Source: a virus. Taken from it: a DNA stretch of 22,490 bases. Position numbers and translations under genes: made by a program. Each line of letters starts with the position of its first letter. Positions within the stretch are counted from its first letter, which is position 1. Shown piece by piece: positions 4,501-22,343 of this stretch. The notes under the pieces are model-generated. The model saw nothing but the letters and a program-made list of their open reading frames with translations. It was not told the origin of the DNA and ran no database searches. The DNA lies in IMG/VR virus record IMGVR_UViG_3300036820_000069, positions 1-22,490 of that record. One strand, given 5' to 3'.

Positions 4501-4635
4501 TTATCCCTCCTCCGGGCCGTCGCTTCCGTCGTCGTCATCCTGGGACTCCTGGAGGTAGACCGGGTCGAAGGGCTTGCCGCCGGCCGCGATAAGGTCGGTC
4601 AGCAGGGCCGGCTTGCTGCCGTCGTTTACCGTCAT
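4501..4635 (-). CDS. 44-aa peptide with KPFDPVYLQ motif
   Basis: A small acidic-tailed protein whose ATG overlaps the stop of the upstream ART by four bases (ATGA), with GGAGC seven bases upstream. The sequence LLTDLIAAGGKPFDPVYLQE is paralogous to the N-terminus of the 54-residue peptide that follows the other ART, and the same FxPVYLQES is found in the 200-residue protein at 15683-16285. The end is acidic (DDDDGSDGPEEG). It lacks the targeting-like tag seen at the end of the 54-residue peptide. The repeated ART-plus-peptide order suggests a partner, immunity or assembly role, but none is proven. Confidence 0.75.
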   Translation of the reverse strand: MTVNDGSKPALLTDLIAAGGKPFDPVYLQESQDDDDGSDGPEEG

Positions 4636-5558
4636 CCTATTGCTCCTATCTGCTCCACGCTGACATGCCACTCGCTGCCCTGCTGCACCGCGCTCTTCAC
4701 GCGGTACCGCCCGCCAGAGATCATCTCCTGCTCATACGAGATGCCGCCGCGCTTCTCGATATCCAGGCCGCGGGCGCTCGTCGCCGTGAGCACGACCTTT
4801 ACCGCGAAGCCGCCGGTATCATGACCGGCATCCGCGAACCGGTTCGCGATAAGCTTGCTTTTCGACCAGGAGGCCGCGCCGATGTCGAACTCAGCACCGG
4901 GGCCCTGCCTGAACGCGTCGAACAGCTTCTTCGCGTCGCCGGTCTGCGTCTGCGCCGCGGTTATCCATTTCATGCCGCGATGCAGCTCGCCGCCGGGGGC
5001 ATCCTCAGATTTCGTCTTAATAGCATCGATTAGGGTCTGAGCATACGAGCCCCAGTCAGTTCCCCTGGGCAGGCCAGCGGGCTGATTGCCGGTGATTATC
5101 CCGGTCATCGCCTGCGAGATATAGGACGAGCTCATCCGCCAAACGCCGACGGCCTTATTCAACTCGGCAGCTCGCGGCGCCTTGGTCTTTGCTGCCTGAG
5201 CCTTATGTGGCTCTTGCGGGAGTATCTGCGCCGCGAGCTTCTCTGCGTGGCCGCTGTCTCCCTTCGGCAGCTTGGACCGCTTTGACGAGATCGTCGCCTT
5301 GAGCGCCCCAGCATTTCCGCCAGTTGCCGCCGCCAGGGCATTCGTCAGGTGATGCCGTGCCTCATCGTTCTGCCCGGCCGCGATCGCCCGCTGAGCCGCC
5401 TGAAGGTGCGCGCCTATCTCGTTCTTCGCAGGGTGCGCGTCGAACTCGCCGCGCGCCGCTGACCCGGCCTTGATGACCTTCTCGCCGGCTGCGCCGCCGC
5501 CCGATGTCCAGTGCCCGTGCGCGTCGCGGTGCTCGAGCGGGCTAAACATCCAGCTCAC
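4632..5558 (-). CDS. ADP-ribosyltransferase effector with shared N-terminal module (308 aa)
   Basis: Predicted to transfer ADP-ribose from NAD+ to a host protein. The catalytic domain (residues ~135-308) has the three R-S-E landmarks: LHRGMKW with Arg194, the strand FDIGAASWSKS with Ser230-x-Ser232, and SYEQEMI with Glu276-x-Glu278, the ExE form found in arginine-directed toxins. The N-terminal ~97 residues form the module shared with both upstream effectors (HGHW, HPAKNEIGAHL, HLTNAL, ATISSKRSKL). It is followed at once by GHAEKLAAQIL (103-112), a match to the tag that ends the scaffold. GTG start, overlapping the preceding stop (GTGA). T4 Alt is a known ART carried in the head; packaging of this protein is my inference. 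It has no signal peptide or membrane segment. Confidence 0.85.
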   Translation of the reverse strand: MSWMFSPLEHRDAHGHWTSGGGAAGEKVIKAGSAARGEFDAHPAKNEIGAHLQAAQRAIAAGQNDEARHHLTNALAAATGGNAGALKATISSKRSKLPKGDSGHAEKLAAQILPQEPHKAQAAKTKAPRAAELNKAVGVWRMSSSYISQAMTGIITGNQPAGLPRGTDWGSYAQTLIDAIKTKSEDAPGGELHRGMKWITAAQTQTGDAKKLFDAFRQGPGAEFDIGAASWSKSKLIANRFADAGHDTGGFAVKVVLTATSARGLDIEKRGGISYEQEMISGGRYRVKSAVQQGSEWHVSVEQIGAIG

Positions 5559-5719
5559 TGCTTCCCGCGCATTATCTGCCTGGCGATCTGCTCGGCATGC
5601 CCGCTGTCACCGCCTGCATCGCCTGCATCGGCATCGTCCGCGGCATCCATGTTCTGAAGGTACAGCGGATCAAACGGCTTGCCGCTCTTCTTGACGACAT
5701 CAGCAAGAAGGTCCGTCAT
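5555..5719 (-). CDS. 54-aa linker peptide: KPFDPLYLQ motif plus scaffold-like C-terminal tag
   Basis: This peptide is made of three parts: LLADVVKKSGKPFDPLYLQN, an acidic Asp/Ala/Gly stretch, and the end GHAEQIARQIMRGKQ. The first part matches the 44-residue peptide and a segment of the 200-residue protein. The end is nearly the same as the scaffold C-terminus (GYAEQLARQIAGS). ATGA overlap with the larger ART upstream, GTGA overlap with the smaller ART downstream, and a GGAGC ribosome site support real translation. It may be an adaptor that brings a partner to the procapsid; this is inference. Confidence 0.8.
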   Translation of the reverse strand: MTDLLADVVKKSGKPFDPLYLQNMDAADDADAGDAGGDSGHAEQIARQIMRGKQ

Positions 5720-7842
5720 CCGAATGCTCCTATATGCTCCGCCGTAACATACGAGATATTATATTGCGTGACAACTTTCGTGATCTTGAACCGGCCGCCG
5801 GAGATCATCTCAGCCTCATGCGCGAACCCGCCGCCGGCATGCTGGATGTCGAACCCGCGCGCATTTGTCGTCGTCAGGACAAGGACGCGCGCGTAGGAAT
5901 CAGCGCTTTTTGCGCCAGAGAATGTCATCGCGATATCCGATTTCTTAGAGAAGGACGCGGCGCCGATGTCGAACTCGGTGCCTGCCCCTTTGTCGATCGC
6001 ATCCCAGAGCTTCTGCGCGCCTGGCTTGTTAAGGTCATTCGCGTTCCACTTCATCCCGCGGTAGAGCTTGCCGTCCGGAGCCGCCTTTGTCTTCGTCTTT
6101 AGCGCCTCCCACATCACGGCCGAATGCACGCTCAATGGCTCTTTGCCGTTGATTATATCCGTGATGCCCATGGAAATTGCAAATGAGCTTCCCTTCCAGG
6201 CCGAAATCGCCTGCGCAAGGGTTACAGGAGTATCATCTGCGCTCTTCGCCTTCTTCGGCTTGGCGACGGCGGCTTCCTTTGCCGCTGTAAGCGCTTTGCT
6301 CACCGCGATCGCAGCCACGTCATGGTCATTGTCGCTTGCCCACTTGCCGAGTTCCGTAAGCTGGTCGACGCTAATCGGCTTGAGGAATGCCTTGACATCA
6401 TTGCTCGCTGCCGTCCAGGCCGCAAAGTCACCGTACTTCGACGCGGCCTTCGCCGCAGAGTACTTTGTGATAAGCTCGACGAGCTTCGCCCGCTGGGCAT
6501 CGACTTGCGCGTGCGTAAGTTCCGGCGCCGGCGCGGACGAGGCGGCTGGCGCGACAGTCGCCAGGAGATCGGCCTTGTCCTTGTCCGCGCCCTTGACGCC
6601 GAGCTTCGACCTGCGGGACGAGATCGTCGCCTTTAGCGCGGGTGAGCTGTCGCCGCCTATCGACTTCAGCGCGTTCGTCAGGTGCGCATGCGCCGCGACA
6701 ACGTCGCCGGACTTCATGGACTTCCACGCCGCGTCGAGGTGCGTCCCGATCTGGGCCTTGTTCGGGTGGGCCATGAACTGCTCGTACGCAGCCGTCCCGG
6801 GGAGAAGCGTCTGCTCACCGGCATGCTCGTCCAGGACCGGCACTGGCTCTGCTGCTTCTGGGATGTCATCAGGCGCCGCGATCGCCGCCTTAAGGTGCTT
6901 CGCCGCCTCACTTGTGGAAGCTGCGTGCTGAGCGGCTTCAAGATGCTCAGCCGCGAACTTGCTTGTCACTGCCTTATTCTTAGCCGCCGCATGCAGGTCA
7001 GCGAGCTCAACCATTGTCACGACATGCTCTTCTGGCTTATCATCAGGCGCAAGCCCCAGGTTACTGGGATGACTTATTACCGCCGTGATCTTGTCCATCT
7101 TCGCCTGAAGGTTATCCGTCTTGATCTGCGCCTTGAGGCCCTCGGCCATCTGGGTGTGGTAGTGGGCATTCGTGGCCTCGCCCGGCTGATTCGCATAGGC
7201 AGCGGCAGCGATCTCATGCGCGTCGGCGGCCTGCTGCTTCAGGCTCTTGTCCTTTACGGCCGCGATTGACAGGCTGTTTGCCGCCTCTGAGAGCTTCTGG
7301 GCTTTTGGCTTGCCCTGATCAGCATTCTTCTCTTTAAGCTCTTTCATCAGCGCGCGGAGCTTGTCGATGGTCTTATCGGTAACCTGGTTAGGCTGGACGC
7401 CGAGAAGTTTTACCATCTCCTTTGCCTCGGGCGTGTTTATCTGTGTCCCCGCCTGGGCATGGAGCATGCTGCTCGACTTCGGCTTGATCCCTTTCGGCCC
7501 GGGCGTATTCCCTGGCAAGCTCTCACCAGCCGCTGGCTCATTCAGCCCGCCGAGTTTTGACCGGCGCGAAGAAATTGTGGCACGAAGGGCGCCGGCGTTC
7601 TTCCCGTACGACGCGACCAGGGCGCTGGTAAGGTGGTGCTTGGCCTCTACGGCGGAGCCGGCCTTTATCGCCTTCTGCGCGGCCTCGAGGTGGGCGCCGA
7701 TCTCATTCTTGTTCGGGTGGGCGGCGTACTCGAGGTGGGCATTTGATCCGTGCACAAGAGCCTTGTCGCCGGCAAGGCCGCCGCTCGACATCCACTCGCC
7801 ATGAGGGCTGCGATGCTGGAACGGGTCGAAATGCCAGGCCAT
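5716..7842 (-). CDS. Large multi-module ADP-ribosyltransferase effector (708 aa)
   Basis: The C-terminal domain (residues ~540-708) is an R-S-E ADP-ribosyltransferase paralogous to the 308-residue ART: LYRGMKW with Arg595, FDIGAASFSKKS with Ser630-x-Ser632, and AHEAEMI with Glu676-x-Glu678. The N-terminal module (1-97, PHGEW..HPNKNEIGAHL..ATISSRRSKL) is repeated at ~348-414 (HPNKAQIGTHL..ATISSRRSKL), with a degenerate piece at ~297-321 (AAEHLEAAQHAAS..AAKHLKAA). The middle (~130-340 and 430-540) is Ala/Lys-rich and helical and may be extended, with no recognised domain. No signal peptide or membrane segment is seen. The stop overlaps the next ATG. The protein is long for a phage ART, near the size of T4 Alt, a known packaged enzyme; delivery with the DNA is inferred. 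Confidence 0.85.
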   Translation of the reverse strand: MAWHFDPFQHRSPHGEWMSSGGLAGDKALVHGSNAHLEYAAHPNKNEIGAHLEAAQKAIKAGSAVEAKHHLTSALVASYGKNAGALRATISSRRSKLGGLNEPAAGESLPGNTPGPKGIKPKSSSMLHAQAGTQINTPEAKEMVKLLGVQPNQVTDKTIDKLRALMKELKEKNADQGKPKAQKLSEAANSLSIAAVKDKSLKQQAADAHEIAAAAYANQPGEATNAHYHTQMAEGLKAQIKTDNLQAKMDKITAVISHPSNLGLAPDDKPEEHVVTMVELADLHAAAKNKAVTSKFAAEHLEAAQHAASTSEAAKHLKAAIAAPDDIPEAAEPVPVLDEHAGEQTLLPGTAAYEQFMAHPNKAQIGTHLDAAWKSMKSGDVVAAHAHLTNALKSIGGDSSPALKATISSRRSKLGVKGADKDKADLLATVAPAASSAPAPELTHAQVDAQRAKLVELITKYSAAKAASKYGDFAAWTAASNDVKAFLKPISVDQLTELGKWASDNDHDVAAIAVSKALTAAKEAAVAKPKKAKSADDTPVTLAQAISAWKGSSFAISMGITDIINGKEPLSVHSAVMWEALKTKTKAAPDGKLYRGMKWNANDLNKPGAQKLWDAIDKGAGTEFDIGAASFSKKSDIAMTFSGAKSADSYARVLVLTTTNARGFDIQHAGGGFAHEAEMISGGRFKITKVVTQYNISYVTAEHIGAFG

Positions 7843-7846
7843 GCTG

Positions 7847-8848
7847 TTAACCCGTCTGCTTATCGAACTCGGCCATCAAGGATTTATGCCAGTCAGCTCG
7901 GCCGAGCGCCGCATACTGCGGGGCAAGCGCATTCAAGCCAGCACGCCACTCTGCCTTCTGCCCGGCAGACCAGCTTGCGCCTGAACCAGCGAGGGCTTTC
8001 GTAAACCTCCCGGTGCTCTGCAATGGCTTATGCTCATACCTGGCATGGCTGTGATCAATCGGCACAGGCTCGCCGCTGGTGTCGATCATCCAGTTCTTGT
8101 CTGTCCGGTCTGTATTGCCAGTGATCGCATCCAGCAGGCCGATGCGCTTGCCGCGCTCTGATGATGAAAACGGCTCAGCCCGTGCATTGCGGTCTGCTGG
8201 CGCAATGCTAAAGTCATCCAGTCCGAGAGCTTCTGATCCGGTCTTTCCTTTTATCTCTGCCGTATGAATGCGACTGCCCTTTACAACAACTGCCGGCGCG
8301 CCCGTGCCGAGCACGCGCGATACTTCGCCGGCGAGCACCTCGGCATCGCTTGTCGTCTTGTCGCTGTTCTTGCTGTACCATACTTGCCCGTTATTGTACT
8401 CAGTTCGCTTGACGACATGCGAGGCCTTACTCGCTGTCTCAGCTTTCACGCCTGATGCAATCGCATCTTTAAGCGACGACCCGCCGCTCGGATCAGCAGG
8501 AAGCGGCGGCGGGGCAATTTTCGCTGGCACCGGCTTGAGCTGCGCCGCGAGCTCTGCGACATGCCCTGTCGCCGGCAGCTTGGACCGGCGACTCGAGATA
8601 GTGGCACGAAGGTTCGCCGCGTCCTTGCCGCCGGCAGCCGCGAGCGCGTTCGTCAAGTGCGTCTTCGCGGAGGCATTATCGCCGGCCTTGATCGCGCCTG
8701 CCGCGCGGCCGAGGTGCTCGGCTATCTTGTCCTTGCCCGGGTGGGCCAGGAATTCGGCGTGGGCGGCCGAGCCGGGCTTGAGAGCGGCAGCCCCCATGGC
8801 GATCCACTCGCCGTGGGGGCCCCTGAGCTCATCCGGGTGGAATGCCAT
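7847..8848 (-). CDS. HipA/PI-kinase-like effector with shared N-terminal module (333 aa)
   Basis: Residues 1-91 are the same module as in the two ARTs (RGPHGEW, HPGKDKIAEHL, THLTNAL, ATISSRRSKL). They are followed at once by GHVAELAAQL (95-104), a variant of the scaffold-type tag. Residues ~143-333 resemble HipA and PI3/PI4-kinase-like folds: a lobe with Lys and AEVLAGEVSRVLG, the catalytic loop LLDAITGNTDRTDKNWMI (Asp247, Asn252) and a metal-binding VPIDHSHA (Asp265). A protein or small-molecule phosphotransferase acting on the host is likely, but the substrate is unknown and the glycine-rich loop is not obvious. First gene after the divergent ligase pair, with a -10 box (TATGAT) nine bases before the ATG. 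Four bases separate it from the large ART. Confidence 0.7.
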   Translation of the reverse strand: MAFHPDELRGPHGEWIAMGAAALKPGSAAHAEFLAHPGKDKIAEHLGRAAGAIKAGDNASAKTHLTNALAAAGGKDAANLRATISSRRSKLPATGHVAELAAQLKPVPAKIAPPPLPADPSGGSSLKDAIASGVKAETASKASHVVKRTEYNNGQVWYSKNSDKTTSDAEVLAGEVSRVLGTGAPAVVVKGSRIHTAEIKGKTGSEALGLDDFSIAPADRNARAEPFSSSERGKRIGLLDAITGNTDRTDKNWMIDTSGEPVPIDHSHARYEHKPLQSTGRFTKALAGSGASWSAGQKAEWRAGLNALAPQYAALGRADWHKSLMAEFDKQTG

Positions 8849-8863: not shown

Positions 8864-8902
8864 CCGCGCGCGGTGCTTCCCCGGGGGCTGTCTTCCGTAC
8901 TG

Positions 8903-8970
8903 GGCGTTTACAACTGCCTGATCTCGCGGTATAATGAAGAAGTACGTAGGAACAAGAGCAAGGGGAAATC
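8903..8970 (+). promoter_or_regulatory. Promoter-leader cassette P1, rightward, for the 48-aa protein and ligase
   Basis: GGCGTTTACAACT (8903-8915) contains -35 TTTACA (8907-8912). After exactly 17 bases comes TATAAT (8930-8935), a consensus -10. The predicted start is near 8942. The leader then reads GTACGTAGGAAC, two bases, GAGCAAGGGG and six bases to the ATG. The same promoter and leader, at the same 68-base distance to the start codon, occur at 18036-18104, and a close copy occurs at 18500-18569. Confidence 0.85.
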
Positions 8971-9117
8971 ATGAACAAGGTTCTGGACGCGGACGGCAGC
9001 GAGCTCGGGTACTGGTTCTACTGCAACCTCAGCAAGTGCTATATCGCAGTCAAGGCAAGCGGCGAGCGCGCGTCGGCCCGCGACATGTACCTGGCCGAGA
9101 GGTTCGTGCGGTCATGA
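8971..9117 (+). CDS. 48-aa protein of unknown function, first gene of the ligase unit
   Basis: Sequence MNKVLDADGSELGYWFYCNL continues to a basic end with AERFVRS. Two Cys (18 and 23) sit in an aromatic stretch, WFYCNLSKCYIAV. It starts just after the conserved leader with an AAGGGG ribosome site, and its TGA overlaps the ligase ATG by four bases (ATGA), so the two are translated together. No family is recognised. Confidence 0.8.
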   Translation: MNKVLDADGSELGYWFYCNLSKCYIAVKASGERASARDMYLAERFVRS

Positions 9118-10046
9118 TCGAGCCGATGAAGGCCGACTCAAGCCTCAAGCCGCTTATTCGCTGGGGCACGGCAGACCTGTTCCGCGACATCGCGGGCGAG
9201 TTCTTCAACGACCAGTGGGTCATGGAGCCGAAGATCGACGGCTGCCGCGCCCTGCTCGAGATGAAGGCGGACAGGTCCCGCTTCGGCGGCATGCGCGCGT
9301 CGTCGTTCCCGCAGTTCGGCAGCATCGCGATCGCCGACCTTGCTGGCACCGTCCTAGACGGCGAGTTCGTCGCGCCGGCCCTTCCGGGCCGCGACAAGGC
9401 ACTGCTCAAGCACTCGACCGCGCTGTTCAACTCTGGCCCGGCCGCTGCGATGAAGTGGCGCATGTACGGGCCCGCGCGCTTCGTGATCTTCGACGTCCTC
9501 GCAATTGCGGGCAAGGATGTTACCGGCTACTCCTATGACCAGCGGCGAATCCTGCTCGGGCAGGTCTACGAGATGATAATGCTCGAGTACCCGGACTGCG
9601 GGATCGAGATCATTGAGCAGGGGCCGGCGACCGCGGAGTACGCGAACAAGATCCTGGTCGCGGGCGGCGAGGGCGTCATGCTCAAGCTCCGCGCCGGCGC
9701 CTACGAGCACGGCAAGCGCTCTCTCAGCTGGCGCAAGGTAAAGCGGTTCGACACGGTCGACTGCTTCCTGACCGGCGAGGCCAGGCCTCACGAGCGCAAT
9801 CCCGAGATCGACGGGTCCGTGCAGGTCGCCGTCGCCGGCGCAGGCGGCCAGCCCGTTATCGTCGGCCATGTCAAGGTCGAGGAGGCATTCCGTGCCTATA
9901 TGCGAAAGGGCGTCGTCATCGAGGTCATGACGCAGGGGATAACCGAGGCCGGCGTCCTCCGCCACCCGCACATGCTCGCCCTTCGCCCGGATAAGAAGCC
10001 GGCCGACTGCGACGAGACCCAGCTGCTGTTCCTCGCGAAAGTCTGA
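9114..10046 (+). CDS. ATP-dependent DNA ligase (310 aa)
   Basis: Seals nicks in DNA using ATP through a covalent lysyl-AMP. The nucleotidyltransferase motifs are in order: motif I PKIDGCR with the adenylated Lys40, motif III VLDGEF, motif IIIa FVIFDVLAI, motif IV EGVMLK and motif V SWRKVKR. The C-terminal ~80 residues (VDCFLTG, GHVKV, VVIEVM) fit a compact OB-fold domain. At 310 residues it is a minimal phage-type ligase without the DNA-binding domain of larger ligases. The chosen ATG overlaps the stop of the 48-residue gene; a longer upstream frame is open but lacks protein-like composition. It is transcribed opposite to the surrounding head genes and ends before a terminator, so it looks like an inserted unit. 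Confidence 0.93.
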   Translation: MIEPMKADSSLKPLIRWGTADLFRDIAGEFFNDQWVMEPKIDGCRALLEMKADRSRFGGMRASSFPQFGSIAIADLAGTVLDGEFVAPALPGRDKALLKHSTALFNSGPAAAMKWRMYGPARFVIFDVLAIAGKDVTGYSYDQRRILLGQVYEMIMLEYPDCGIEIIEQGPATAEYANKILVAGGEGVMLKLRAGAYEHGKRSLSWRKVKRFDTVDCFLTGEARPHERNPEIDGSVQVAVAGAGGQPVIVGHVKVEEAFRAYMRKGVVIEVMTQGITEAGVLRHPHMLALRPDKKPADCDETQLLFLAKV

Positions 10047-10986: not shown

Positions 10987-11475
10987 CTATTCCCCGGCAG
11001 GCGGGTGACGGCGGCCGCGCTGCTGCGGGCCGGGGGTGATCGTCACCGGGACGACCTGGTTCTTGACCATGTCCCGGACCTGCGTCGCCAGCGAGTGCAC
11101 CTGCTCGGTGAGCGCCGTGTTCGCCTCGATCAGCGCGCAATGCCTCTGCGCGATCTCCTCGCGGTGCGCCGCATCCGCGGCGATCGCGGCCTTGTCCCTG
11201 TCGGCCTGCCTTGTCTGCGCGAGCAGGATAAGCGGCGCCGCGTACGCCGCCTGCGTGGAGAAGCACAGGTTGAGCAGGATGAACGGGTACGGGTCCCACT
11301 TGTGAACGATCGCAAGCGCATTCAGGGCGATCCAGATCGCGACTACGAAAGTCTGGCCTACGATGAACCCGGGCGTCCCGAAGGCGCGGGCGAACTTCTC
11401 GGCGATCTTGCCAAAGCCGCCGGCGCCGAACGGGGCTTCCAGGTGCGCGTAATTGTGGTGCCTGCTTATGCTCAC
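10987..11475 (-). CDS. DUF1003 family membrane protein
   Basis: Two membrane helices (about residues 36-57 and 65-87) surround the family's typical DPYPFILLNL loop, followed by APLILLAQTRQADRD. This is the signature of DUF1003 proteins, which are common in bacteria and occur in phages; their function is unknown. Residues ~90-137 are likely a coiled coil, so the protein may oligomerise at the membrane. GTG start with GGAGG six bases upstream, overlapping the 104-residue gene's stop (GTGA). A membrane protein inside a head operon is unusual; a role in host membrane change or superinfection exclusion is speculation. Confidence 0.85.
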   Translation of the reverse strand: MSISRHHNYAHLEAPFGAGGFGKIAEKFARAFGTPGFIVGQTFVVAIWIALNALAIVHKWDPYPFILLNLCFSTQAAYAAPLILLAQTRQADRDKAAIAADAAHREEIAQRHCALIEANTALTEQVHSLATQVRDMVKNQVVPVTITPGPQQRGRRHPPAGE

Positions 11476-15338: not shown

Positions 15339-15686
15339 GTCCCTGTCCTTTCGTTGCCGTCTGCCCAGCATATCATGCCCGGGGCAAGCTTGTAAACGCC
15401 GGTCTTCGGCAGTCCTTCCTTTGCGGAACTTCTCCGGGACGACCGCCTCATAAAGCGCCCTGATCTCGTCCCACCGGTTCGACACGCCGTAGTACGTTTG
15501 CTTCTGGTCGAACCGGATGAGCATGTCGGCGGCGTCGATCTCGAGATCGCCGATGATCGCGTGGATCGCATGCCTGAGGAAGCCGGCATCGGACTTGCGA
15601 TGCGGCTCGCGCTCAGGCTCCCGCACCTCGATGATTATGTACGTCAGCCGGGGCCGGTCAGCCGGCTCTGTCACGGTCACGGTCAT
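15335..15686 (-). CDS. Operon protein of unknown function with unresolved 3' end
   Basis: The start (MTVTVTEPADRPRLTYIIIE) overlaps the stop of the 200-residue gene by four bases, so the N-terminus is well supported. Residues up to about 85 are protein-like (FLRHAIHAIIGDLEIDAADM, RALYEAVVPEKF). Beyond this the same frame becomes Arg-rich with unusual codons and stays open into the secreted protein. The +1 frame instead continues with KEGLPKTGVYKLAPGMICWA and ends with a TGA that overlaps the next ATG, exactly as its neighbours do. Either a frameshift (biological or sequencing error), two overlapping frames or a fusion could explain this. The end given here is that of the +1 frame. Confidence 0.5.
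15367..15400 (-). promoter_or_regulatory. Promoter P5 of the secreted-protein gene
   Basis: GGCGTTTACAA on the minus strand (from 15400) contains TTTACA. TATGCT at 15367-15372 follows after 18 bases. It shares the extended -35 with the other four sites but not their leader; 62 bases separate the element from the ATG at 15338. Confidence 0.65.
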
Positions 15687-17420: not shown

Positions 17421-17569
17421 GATTCCTCGATCTCGTCTGCGGCGAAGCCGGCGGGGAGCTCGAGCGCGCTCTGCCCGTCGAGGCGGACCCACGTCATCTG
17501 CCTGTCAGCGCCGGCCGGGGCCGGCACGATTACCCCCGCGCCGCGGGGCGTAACCACGCGGCGGTTCAC
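17417..17569 (-). CDS. 50-aa protein of unknown function
   Basis: GTG start inside the stop of the 156-residue gene (GTGA) and TGA overlapping the next ATG. The sequence is beta-type: VVTPRGAGVIVPAPAG, MTWVRLDGQSALELPAGF and an acidic end, ADEIEES. No family is recognised. Confidence 0.65.
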   Translation of the reverse strand: MNRRVVTPRGAGVIVPAPAGADRQMTWVRLDGQSALELPAGFAADEIEES

Positions 17570-18036
17570 TGCTGCTCGCCGTGCAGAGGACATTGCCCGC
17601 GCACTCGGCCGAACTCGTCGGCATGCGCGACATCGCAGTTGGCGGGATCGCAGGTCGGGTTGCAGGCATGCGCCTCGGGATCGCGCGCAAGCGTGCAGGC
17701 AGTGATGAAGGCAGCGAGCGTCTCCTTGCCGACGAGCGCGGCGAGCATCTCGAAGGCCGCGTTGTAGACGGCGGCGGCGGCCTCGAAGTCATTCGCGTGC
17801 TGCGCGACATTCTGGGTGAGCGCGTAGCCGGCCTTGAAGCTGCGGTCGGCGTCGTCGAGGTTGCCGCGCATCCACTTCTGCGCGTCGCGGATCTTGTTCT
17901 CAGAAACGCGGATGCTCTGGAGCGCGCCGTAGACCGCGTAGCGAATGGTCTCGCCCTGGTCCTGCACGCTCGCCTCGACAGCGCGCGCCGCGGCGTAGAG
18001 CTTCTTCTCGCGGGTCTGCTCGGCCTTCGCGTTCAT
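17566..18036 (-). CDS. 156-aa protein with C-terminal Cys/His cluster, function unknown
   Basis: Residues 1-115 are helical (LYAAARAVEASVQDQGETIR, MLAALVGKETLAAFITAC). Residues ~112-152 carry a Cys/His cluster, ACTLARDPEAHACNPTCDP, ANCDVAHADEF and GQCPLHG, which could bind zinc. This is the first gene of the overlapping chain and has the conserved promoter-leader cassette 68 bases upstream, with GGGGAG as ribosome site. The codons for RVRGQCPLH contain the second arm of the 29-base near-repeat. No family is recognised. Confidence 0.75.
   Translation of the reverse strand: MNAKAEQTREKKLYAAARAVEASVQDQGETIRYAVYGALQSIRVSENKIRDAQKWMRGNLDDADRSFKAGYALTQNVAQHANDFEAAAAVYNAAFEMLAALVGKETLAAFITACTLARDPEAHACNPTCDPANCDVAHADEFGRVRGQCPLHGEQQ
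17581..17609. repeat. 29-base near-repeat, copy 2 (partner 3111-3139)
   Basis: Two transitions separate the copies. Here the bases are read in another frame (GRVRGQCPLH), while the AECAGNVLC frame of copy 1 is present but not the coding frame. Confidence 0.7.
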
Positions 18037-18104
18037 TTTCTCCCCTTGCTCGTGTTCCTGCGTACATCTCTACTATACCCTGCGGGGCGACAGTTGTAAA
18101 CGCC
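18037..18104 (-). promoter_or_regulatory. Promoter-leader cassette P3, leftward, for the 156-aa gene
   Basis: GGCGTTTACAACT (18104-18092), TTTACA at 18100-18095, 17 bases, then TATAGT (18077-18072). The leader GTACGCAGGAAC, two bases, GAGCAAGGGG matches P1, and the distance from element to ATG is the same 68 bases. The element lies within the last codons of the upstream 95-residue gene. Confidence 0.8.
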
Positions 18105-18360
18105 CGCTGGACGGAAGCTTCATGGCCTCCTCGCAGAGGCGGGAGATCGAGTCCTCGAGGGCGCTGATCTCCGCGTCGGCGCGGCGCTTCACCTCGCGGT
18201 GGTATGCGAGCGCGAACATCGCGTATGCCTTCGCGACCTGCGGGTTGGCGGGGTCGAATCCCTTTTTCTCCGCGTGCGCGATCCAGGCGGCGACCGGGGA
18301 CAGCGCCGCCGCGCCGGCCGCCGCGCCGGCGCGGCGCGCACTGTGAAGGTCCGGCCTCAT
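18073..18360 (-). CDS. 95-aa helical protein of unknown function
   Basis: The ATG overlaps the stop of the 47-residue gene by four bases. The protein is helical: AWIAHAEKKGFDPANPQVAK, YAMFALAYHREVKRRADAEI and SALEDSISRLCEEAMKLP. The last 13 codons overlap promoter P3. A longer frame upstream is out of step with the 47-residue gene and Arg-rich, so the inner ATG was chosen. Confidence 0.65.
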   Translation of the reverse strand: MRPDLHSARRAGAAAGAAALSPVAAWIAHAEKKGFDPANPQVAKAYAMFALAYHREVKRRADAEISALEDSISRLCEEAMKLPSSGRLQLSPRRV

Positions 18361-18500
18361 GACTCGGGGCCGGTCATGCGGAGGCCGGGAAGCGGCCAGA
18401 CCATCGCGTTGACGTCGATGAACTCCTGGGCGGCCTCGGCCGTGTCGAACGCGCGGGAGACGCGGTAGCCCTTCAGGTGGATGTAGCTGACCTTGAACAT
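18357..18500 (-). CDS. 47-aa protein of unknown function
   Basis: Reads MFKVSYIHLKGYRVSRAFDT, then AEAAQEFIDVNAMVWPL and an end in TGPES. This strand-helix layout, in which a beta strand is followed by FDTAEAAQEFID, resembles small actinophage proteins I cannot name. It directly follows cassette P4, with AAGGGG seven bases before the ATG. Confidence 0.75.
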   Translation of the reverse strand: MFKVSYIHLKGYRVSRAFDTAEAAQEFIDVNAMVWPLPGLRMTGPES

Positions 18501-18569
18501 TCACTGCCCCTTAGCTCGGTTCCTGCGTACCTCCTCATCGTACCGCATCGAACGGAAGTTGTAAACGCC
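18501..18569 (-). promoter_or_regulatory. Promoter-leader cassette P4, leftward, for the 47-aa gene
   Basis: GGCGTTTACAACT (18569-18557), TTTACA at 18565-18560, 17 bases, TACGAT (18542-18537). The leader has GTACGCAGGAAC and GAGCTAAGGGG before the ATG at 18500, 69 bases from the element. Confidence 0.8.
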
Positions 18570-18613
18570 CGTGGGCAGGGAACTCCGGGGCTCCCGCAAG
18601 CCGGCGGGCGCGG

Positions 18614-22040: not shown

Positions 22041-22079
22041 CCCCGGGGAGCGCGCCGGGGGAAGGGGACGGCGGAAACG

Positions 22080-22112
22080 GGCGTTTACAACTGGGCTGCG
22101 GCGCGGTAGGAT
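22080..22112 (+). promoter_or_regulatory. Promoter P2, rightward, for the 74-aa gene
   Basis: GGCGTTTACAACT (22080-22092), TTTACA at 22084-22089, 17 bases, TAGGAT (22107-22112). The ATG follows after six bases, so this site joins the extended -35 of the P family with the leaderless layout of the virion-gene promoters. Confidence 0.8.
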
Positions 22113-22118
22113 GGAGAC

Positions 22119-22343
22119 ATGCAGGAACACGGAATCTGGTCAGGCGCGGCAGGCGGCTTCATCGCTTCTCAGCTAACTGAGGCGGAGGCACCTAGCGAGC
22201 TCGCGCGGCTTGTCGCCGGCGGCGAAGACGCAGATGACCTCGAGATCCTGCGTGCCTGTCCCCAGCCGGGGCATGACGAGCAGCCGGAAGACGGGTGCGA
22301 GGACTGCGCTGAGGACGACGACTGCAAGACAGAGGAGGCCTGA
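22119..22343 (+). CDS. 74-aa acidic protein of unknown function
   Basis: An N-terminal helix (AAGGFIASQLTEAEAPSELA) is followed by an acidic, Cys-containing end (ACPQPGHDEQPEDGCEDCAE). Three Cys and a His could bind metal. The ATG is six bases after the -10 box, with GGAG in between, so leaderless translation or a very short leader is expected. No family is recognised. Confidence 0.7.
   Translation: MQEHGIWSGAAGGFIASQLTEAEAPSELARLVAGGEDADDLEILRACPQPGHDEQPEDGCEDCAEDDDCKTEEA

Follow-up and report, generated by a model that had tools for sequence, protein, structure and literature searches.

We sought to determine why three promoters of an actinophage-like tailed virus are followed by almost the same short transcribed leader, and whether this leader is a piece of copied DNA or a signal held in place by selection. 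The window, i.e. the whole 22,490-base IMG/VR virus record analysed here, contains recognisable genes for terminase, portal, major capsid protein (assigned via homology to capsid genes of relatives) and ATP-dependent DNA ligase, and its best terminase matches, at 37-41%, are to Streptomyces and Microbacterium phages. The exact 14-mer GGGCGTTTACAACT is present four times, at 8902 (+), 18105 (-), 18570 (-) and 22079 (+), and five sites match it with at most three mismatches, against 0.75 expected. All four exact copies read as the extended -35 block of a sigma-70-type promoter, TTTACA-N17-TAnnnT.

Three of these promoters, P1, P3 and P4, share the leader. In P1 the block (8902-8915, +) is followed, 17 bases 3' of TTTACA, by the -10 TATAAT (8930-8935) and then by the leader GTACGTAGGAACAAGAGCAAGGGGAAATC (8942-8970), the first base of which, 8942, is the +1 predicted from spacing. 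On the minus strand, P3 consists of the block at 18092-18105, the -10 TATAGT at 18072-18077 and the leader GTACGCAGGAACACGAGCAAGGGGAGAAA at 18037-18065, and P4 of the block at 18557-18570, the -10 TACGAT at 18537-18542 and the leader GTACGCAGGAACCGAGCTAAGGGGCAGTGA at 18501-18530. The order is the same in each: -10, six bases, GTACG[CT]AGGAAC, one or two bases, GAGC(T)AAGGGG and the start codon, an ATG at 8971, 18036 and 18500, respectively, with AGGAAC beginning 23-24 bases 5' of it. The preliminary description, according to which these sites share both promoter and leader, with the start codon 68, 68 and 69 bases from the element, thus holds base for base. Exact GTACG[CT]AGGAAC occurs at 8942-8953 (+), 18065-18054 (-) and 18530-18519 (-) and nowhere else in the window, and, at 66% GC, chance falls far short of explaining a 12-mer common to three sites at a fixed position. 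A fifth, imperfect promoter block, CGGCGTTTACAAGC (15388-15401, -), has a leader without AGGAAC.

P1 precedes a 48-aa ORF (8971-9117, +), the stop codon of which overlaps, through ATGA, with the start of the ligase gene, the second gene of the P1 unit (9114-10046, +; PHROG 114, 4.3e-26; Pfam PF01068). The longest mechanical ORF near P1 (8934-10046, +; 370 aa) begins within the P1 -10, and the arrangement of a 48-aa ORF plus ligase gene is more plausible than this single ORF. Downstream of P3 lies a 156-aa ORF without family match (17566-18036, -), and downstream of P4 a 47-aa ORF (18357-18500, -). Elsewhere in the window (4632-8848, -), three adjacent proteins begin with related HGxW...AHPxKxxIxxHLxxA domains (repeat families D1, D2 and D6), apparently a tandemly duplicated domain.

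Identical block order at three loci on both strands could be taken as the mark of a promoter-leader cassette that is mobile or was copied recently, as had been proposed earlier. Comparison of P1, P3 and P4 block by block does not support such an origin: identity is 14/14 in the -35 block and 11-12/12 in the leader, but only 5-7/14 in the spacer and 2-4/6 in the discriminator, and no end repeats were seen. Recent copying would have preserved the spacer, and, therefore, either selection maintains the leader, or duplication happened long ago and nothing but the useful parts has survived. Moreover, unrelated phages have the same leader behind other promoter variants (see below). Recent copying, refuted by the spacer divergence, is highly improbable, while ancient duplication would still be compatible with the data; the sharing of the leader among several genes and with unrelated phages speaks for a start signal kept by selection, and against copied DNA.

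A search of IMG/VR with the terminase alone gave no close relative, family alignments gave relatives at the 43% level without the leader, and a scan of IMG/VR with the exact promoter and leader patterns yielded chance matches within coding DNA only. The closest relative, IMGVR_UViG_3300044814_000051 (34 kb; G001), was found through capsid alignment and is 79% identical to the window in the capsid, 63% in the portal and 60% in the terminase over the matched parts. In G001 the TTTACA-N17-TAnnnT promoter and TACGNAGGAAC are both absent, and its two strongest promoters, which are different TTGACA promoters, carry AAGGAAGAAC(AC)GAG leaders; a search for TT[GTC]AC[AT]-type promoters matched two sites, with ACAAGGAAGAACGAGAACCAGGGAGAACATC-ATG and ATAAGGAAGAACACGAGCACACGGGGGGAATC-ATG. 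These leaders are recognisably of the same kind as that of the window (compare AGGAACACGAGCAAGGGG). The preliminary description had named relatives with the promoter but a random leader as the case that would count against it; G001 presents the opposite, a recognisable leader without the GGGCGTTTACAACT promoter, indicating that promoter and leader evolve separately.

The leader might nevertheless be nothing more than the ordinary purine-rich ribosome site of actinophages, with a compositional likeness between phages, given that AGGA resembles a Shine-Dalgarno sequence and that purine leaders are favoured in high-GC phages. Other terminase and capsid relatives make this quite unlikely: in 827 kb and 959 kb of their GC-rich DNA, AGGAAC was found in leaders 0 times and once, respectively, and its counts are at or below the mean of the 60 permutations of the hexamer. 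The dinucleotide shuffle test described below also argues against it. Two of the terminase relatives have repeats of their own. IMGVR_UViG_3300049988_000059 carries a threefold promoter cassette, TTGCGCCRTGCCGGATTAGGTGTAnnnTGGAnCCATGACC, at 11470, 12293 and 12807, in which the ATG comes soon after the -10, so that it looks leaderless, and in which the spacer, in contrast to the window, is conserved; in another (L061), GCCTCCTTGGGGC is repeated before TA-rich segments at 1006, 1351 and 2234.

A relaxed scan matched a 111-kb record of 68% GC, IMGVR_UViG_3300025928_000005 (G002). It contains 30 TTTACA-N17-TAnnnT promoters, nearly all of which lead into leaders such as AGAACGCAGGAACGAGGAACCGGAGGA-start, while the reversed pattern occurs 0-1 times. 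G004 to G010 came from another scan and from searches of whole records. Seven GC-rich records (G002 and G004-G009) contain 88 such promoters, 67 of which have AGGAAC no more than 45 bases from the -10, or, since records were admitted via at least one AGGAAC site, a fairer 60 of 81 after removal of one selecting site per record. Of the 88 promoters, 66 had the motif in leaders cut at the start codon, whereas dinucleotide-preserving shuffles of these leaders gave 5.6 on average and never more than 12. Among other permutations of the hexamer, CAGGAA apart, the highest count was 25, owing to overlap with the extended motif. The leader is thereby supported as a conserved functional unit distinct from the Shine-Dalgarno sequence, with AGGAAC as the part in need of explanation, in agreement with the preliminary description.

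Proteins of the window, compared with the available parts of G002 and G004-G010, showed no similarity at E<1e-10, and lower stringency gave only a weak 26% terminase match. The records themselves fall into about two lineages, one with G002, G010 and G007 together with G009 and G008, the other with G004, G005 and G006, so that, counting the window and G001, the leader is common to at least three phage lineages. Among the cultured phages examined, the sole convincing copy is in Streptomyces phage Yara, where TTTCCA-N17-TAGAGT is followed by GTAAGCAGGAACACCAACGAGGAGGACACC-ATG before gene 32 (copy GTAAGCAGGAAC, at 26804); the Yara leader region had no other match among isolates, and a 33-base BLAST search against isolates gave nothing meaningful. 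In 396 genomes from the phylum of a Streptomyces strain, a strict pattern of promoter plus leader was not matched, and no host was identified. Among the 80 loci listed in a leader-free promoter scan of IMG/VR, four had a GC of at least 0.52 and none of the four had AGGAAC; among such loci, then, the promoter also exists without the leader. No description of the motif was found in the literature searched, where six letters search poorly, so that an earlier description may exist.

What could such a leader do? In the set of 88 promoters, leaders are about 31 bases long and consist of 37% A, 36% G, 22% C and 5% U; the T share is 3-6% in +1 to +20, against 23% in spacer plus discriminator. Predicted folding energy over +1 to +40 averages -4.7 kcal/mol, as compared with -12.2 kcal/mol for random G002 40-mers, i.e. 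the leaders are nearly unfolded; no conserved pairing was predicted in them, and Rfam covariance models found no match in the window. Two GGAA units are present in 47 of the 88, with a spacing peak at 7 bases. The AGGAAC copies in the leaders of the window are all sense to their own genes, as are the 18 of 18 copies in a 6-kb stretch of G002, every one of them in a leader. The motif is sense-strand, transcribed, single-stranded, position-tolerant, sometimes tandem and 5' of the ribosome site. The reading that best fits such properties is a sequence-specific RNA element that acts in translation initiation, and to this reading we give about even credence on the strength of sequence comparison. 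Transcription would start about 7 bases after the -10, and AGGAAC would come within roughly the first twelve bases of the RNA; 5' of the main Shine-Dalgarno sequence, the U-poor, almost unfolded leader would present between one and three GGAA units, spaced by about 7 bases. The leader would most likely raise translation initiation, by holding the 5' end single-stranded and by serving, ahead of the true ribosome site, as a landing place for either the 30S subunit or a protein that binds RNA; it would act on RNA rather than on DNA. Retention of the leader while spacer and discriminator drift, its position behind different TTGACA promoters in G001, the 67 of 88 promoters of unrelated records, the U depletion and the weak folding are all consistent with a translation element. 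A plain second Shine-Dalgarno sequence is unlikely, as the pairing of AGGAAC with the 16S tail is weak (-4.3 kcal/mol, against -7.4 kcal/mol for AAGGGG of the window). The weakness of this pairing also counts against the translation element in general, and implies that any effect must depend in large part on unstructuredness or on a bound protein.

The same U depletion and weak structure, restricted to the leader, could instead protect the mRNA, in that a U-poor, unstructured 5' end would evade host or phage endoribonucleases and stabilise the message, which would suit a leaderless message as well. Since U depletion needs no AGGAAC, and composition-preserving shuffles yielded 5.6 of 88 against 66, we regard protection as an unlikely function of the motif. 

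Position offers another way of looking at the problem. In the other phages, leaders contain from 0 to 5 copies of AGGAAC. The beginning of the first copy is at a median distance of 7 bases (standard deviation 7.1) downstream of +1 and of 23 bases (standard deviation 7.7) upstream of the start codon. Such nearly equal scatter does not favour a translation element, and position alone cannot separate anchoring at the 5' end from anchoring at the start codon. A possible, if doubtful, alternative is an initially transcribed DNA element that works as part of the promoter, RNA polymerase or a phage regulator recognising it in promoter escape, pausing, repression or activation. It would account for the constant interval between -10 and leader in the window (N6, GTACG), but not easily for the wide variation of this distance and of copy number (0 to 5) in other phages, nor for the separability of leader and -35 block in G001. 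G002 bears on both readings. Most of its AGGAAC copies are directly 3' of TTTACA promoters, as expected of a DNA element: over 75 kb, 40 copies are in promoter leaders. About ten copies, against a permutation mean of 2.2, precede starts of internal genes without a recognisable promoter, although a few of these ten may have promoters that the search missed. These latter copies speak for translation and against a DNA element; genes of G002 that lack their own promoter are, however, mostly without AGGAAC, and the motif follows promoters more than starts.

The fourth perfect promoter, which was not in the preliminary description, is an awkward case for a translation element. Its block (22079-22092, +) and -10 TAGGAT (22107-22112) are followed by GGAGAC-ATGCAGGAACACGGAATC, with the ATG of a 74-aa ORF (22119-22343) 7 bases 3' of the -10, and AGGAAC lies within the ORF at 22123-22128, inside ATGCAGGAACACGG. 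As the ATG is at the expected transcription start, the message is probably leaderless, with AGGAAC nonetheless kept. A matrix built solely from the leaders of other phages placed this site (ATGCAGGAACACGGA, 22119-22133) first among about 44,950 window positions and the leaders of P4, P3 and P1 second, fifth and eleventh, although this ranking rests largely on the shared hexamer AGGAAC. Without a downstream Shine-Dalgarno sequence, the leaderless copy misfits a pure landing pad and better fits a role at the 5' end or at the DNA level, the ATG itself being at +1; control of initial transcription and 5'-end protection, therefore, stay alive. A further, rather doubtful reading is a phage-specific RNA code, in which tandem GGAAC units at the 5' end would be bound by a dedicated factor that favours phage messages in translation or protects them, unrelated actinobacterial phages having converged on it; such a factor would, with the same reserve, be either phage-encoded or a host protein common to the hosts of these phages.

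Comparison with known systems shows that the likeness to the start-associated sequences (SAS) of cluster K mycobacteriophages, drawn in the preliminary description, is apt as an analogy, while sequence, position and repeat structure differ. In both cases a short phage sequence is repeated in one direction 5' of the start codons of non-homologous genes, as in the window and in the 18 of 18 copies of G002, and conservation extends past the Shine-Dalgarno core; in addition, the ESAS subset is joined to a SigA-like promoter, a type of promoter also present in the window. However, the 13-bp SAS consensus GGGATAGGAGCCC is not matched with two or fewer mismatches by the leader, which reads GTACG[CT]AGGAAC-n-GAGC(T)AAGGGG instead. 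SAS lie 3-7 bases before the start codon and contain the ribosome site, whereas AGGAAC begins 23-24 bases before it and is separate from and 5' of the ribosome site, near the 5' end; SAS are single-copy and nearly confined to cluster K, whereas the AGGAAC leader is often tandem and common to unrelated lineages. The carrier, with a terminase nearest to those of Streptomyces and Microbacterium phages (37-41%), does not resemble a cluster K mycobacteriophage. The ESAS promoter has a 17-bp imperfect inverted repeat 5' of the element; an inverted repeat can be seen by eye in some G009 copies, and none is evident in the window. By sequence, start distance and carrier, the leader falls outside the SAS, but in a comparable location.

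Position-tolerant enhancer motifs upstream of the Shine-Dalgarno sequence are established in enterics, where ACA motifs enhance translation without fixed position or spacing (yifK, dppA; PMC3879156), in support of a translation element. They are likewise short and sometimes multiple and may be regarded as the closest tested precedent for position tolerance, but they differ in sequence, belong to enteric chromosomal genes and were shown by mutation, whereas the AGGAAC leader is known from sequence alone. The leader and ribosome-site enhancer of phage T7 gene 10 (PMC8748333) is likewise a phage leader element that augments a downstream Shine-Dalgarno sequence; it is of different sequence, comes from one phage and was experimentally tested, while the AGGAAC leader is U-poor, has repeated GGAAC units and is present in several phages.

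The cluster K SAS have been a puzzle since 2011, partly because they seemed limited to one cluster, and a second, distinct leader motif in at least three unrelated lineages, and once in a cultured phage of Streptomyces, suggests that actinobacterial phages use repeated leader signals more widely. The Yara gene is a tractable case for testing how such leaders act. The AGGAAC leader could also flag co-expressed phage genes, assist promoter and start calling in uncultured phages, and help to sort phages by host.

Several other promoter features deserve mention. In G002 and G004-G010, many TTTACA promoter spacers end in TGG before TAnnnT (extended -10-like), a promoter type common to GC-rich soil virus records of 29-147 kb. 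In G009 (IMGVR_UViG_3300032898_000004), TTTACA promoters at 42250, 41900 and other sites lie within inverted repeats, e.g. CCTCTCAGGTG-TTTACATTTGA-CACCTGAGAGG, the sequence of which suggests an operator over the -35. Three promoters of the satellite phage MiniFlayer (11689, 11826 and 13692) have TTGACAnCATAAnA in common, another extended -35 block specific to one phage.
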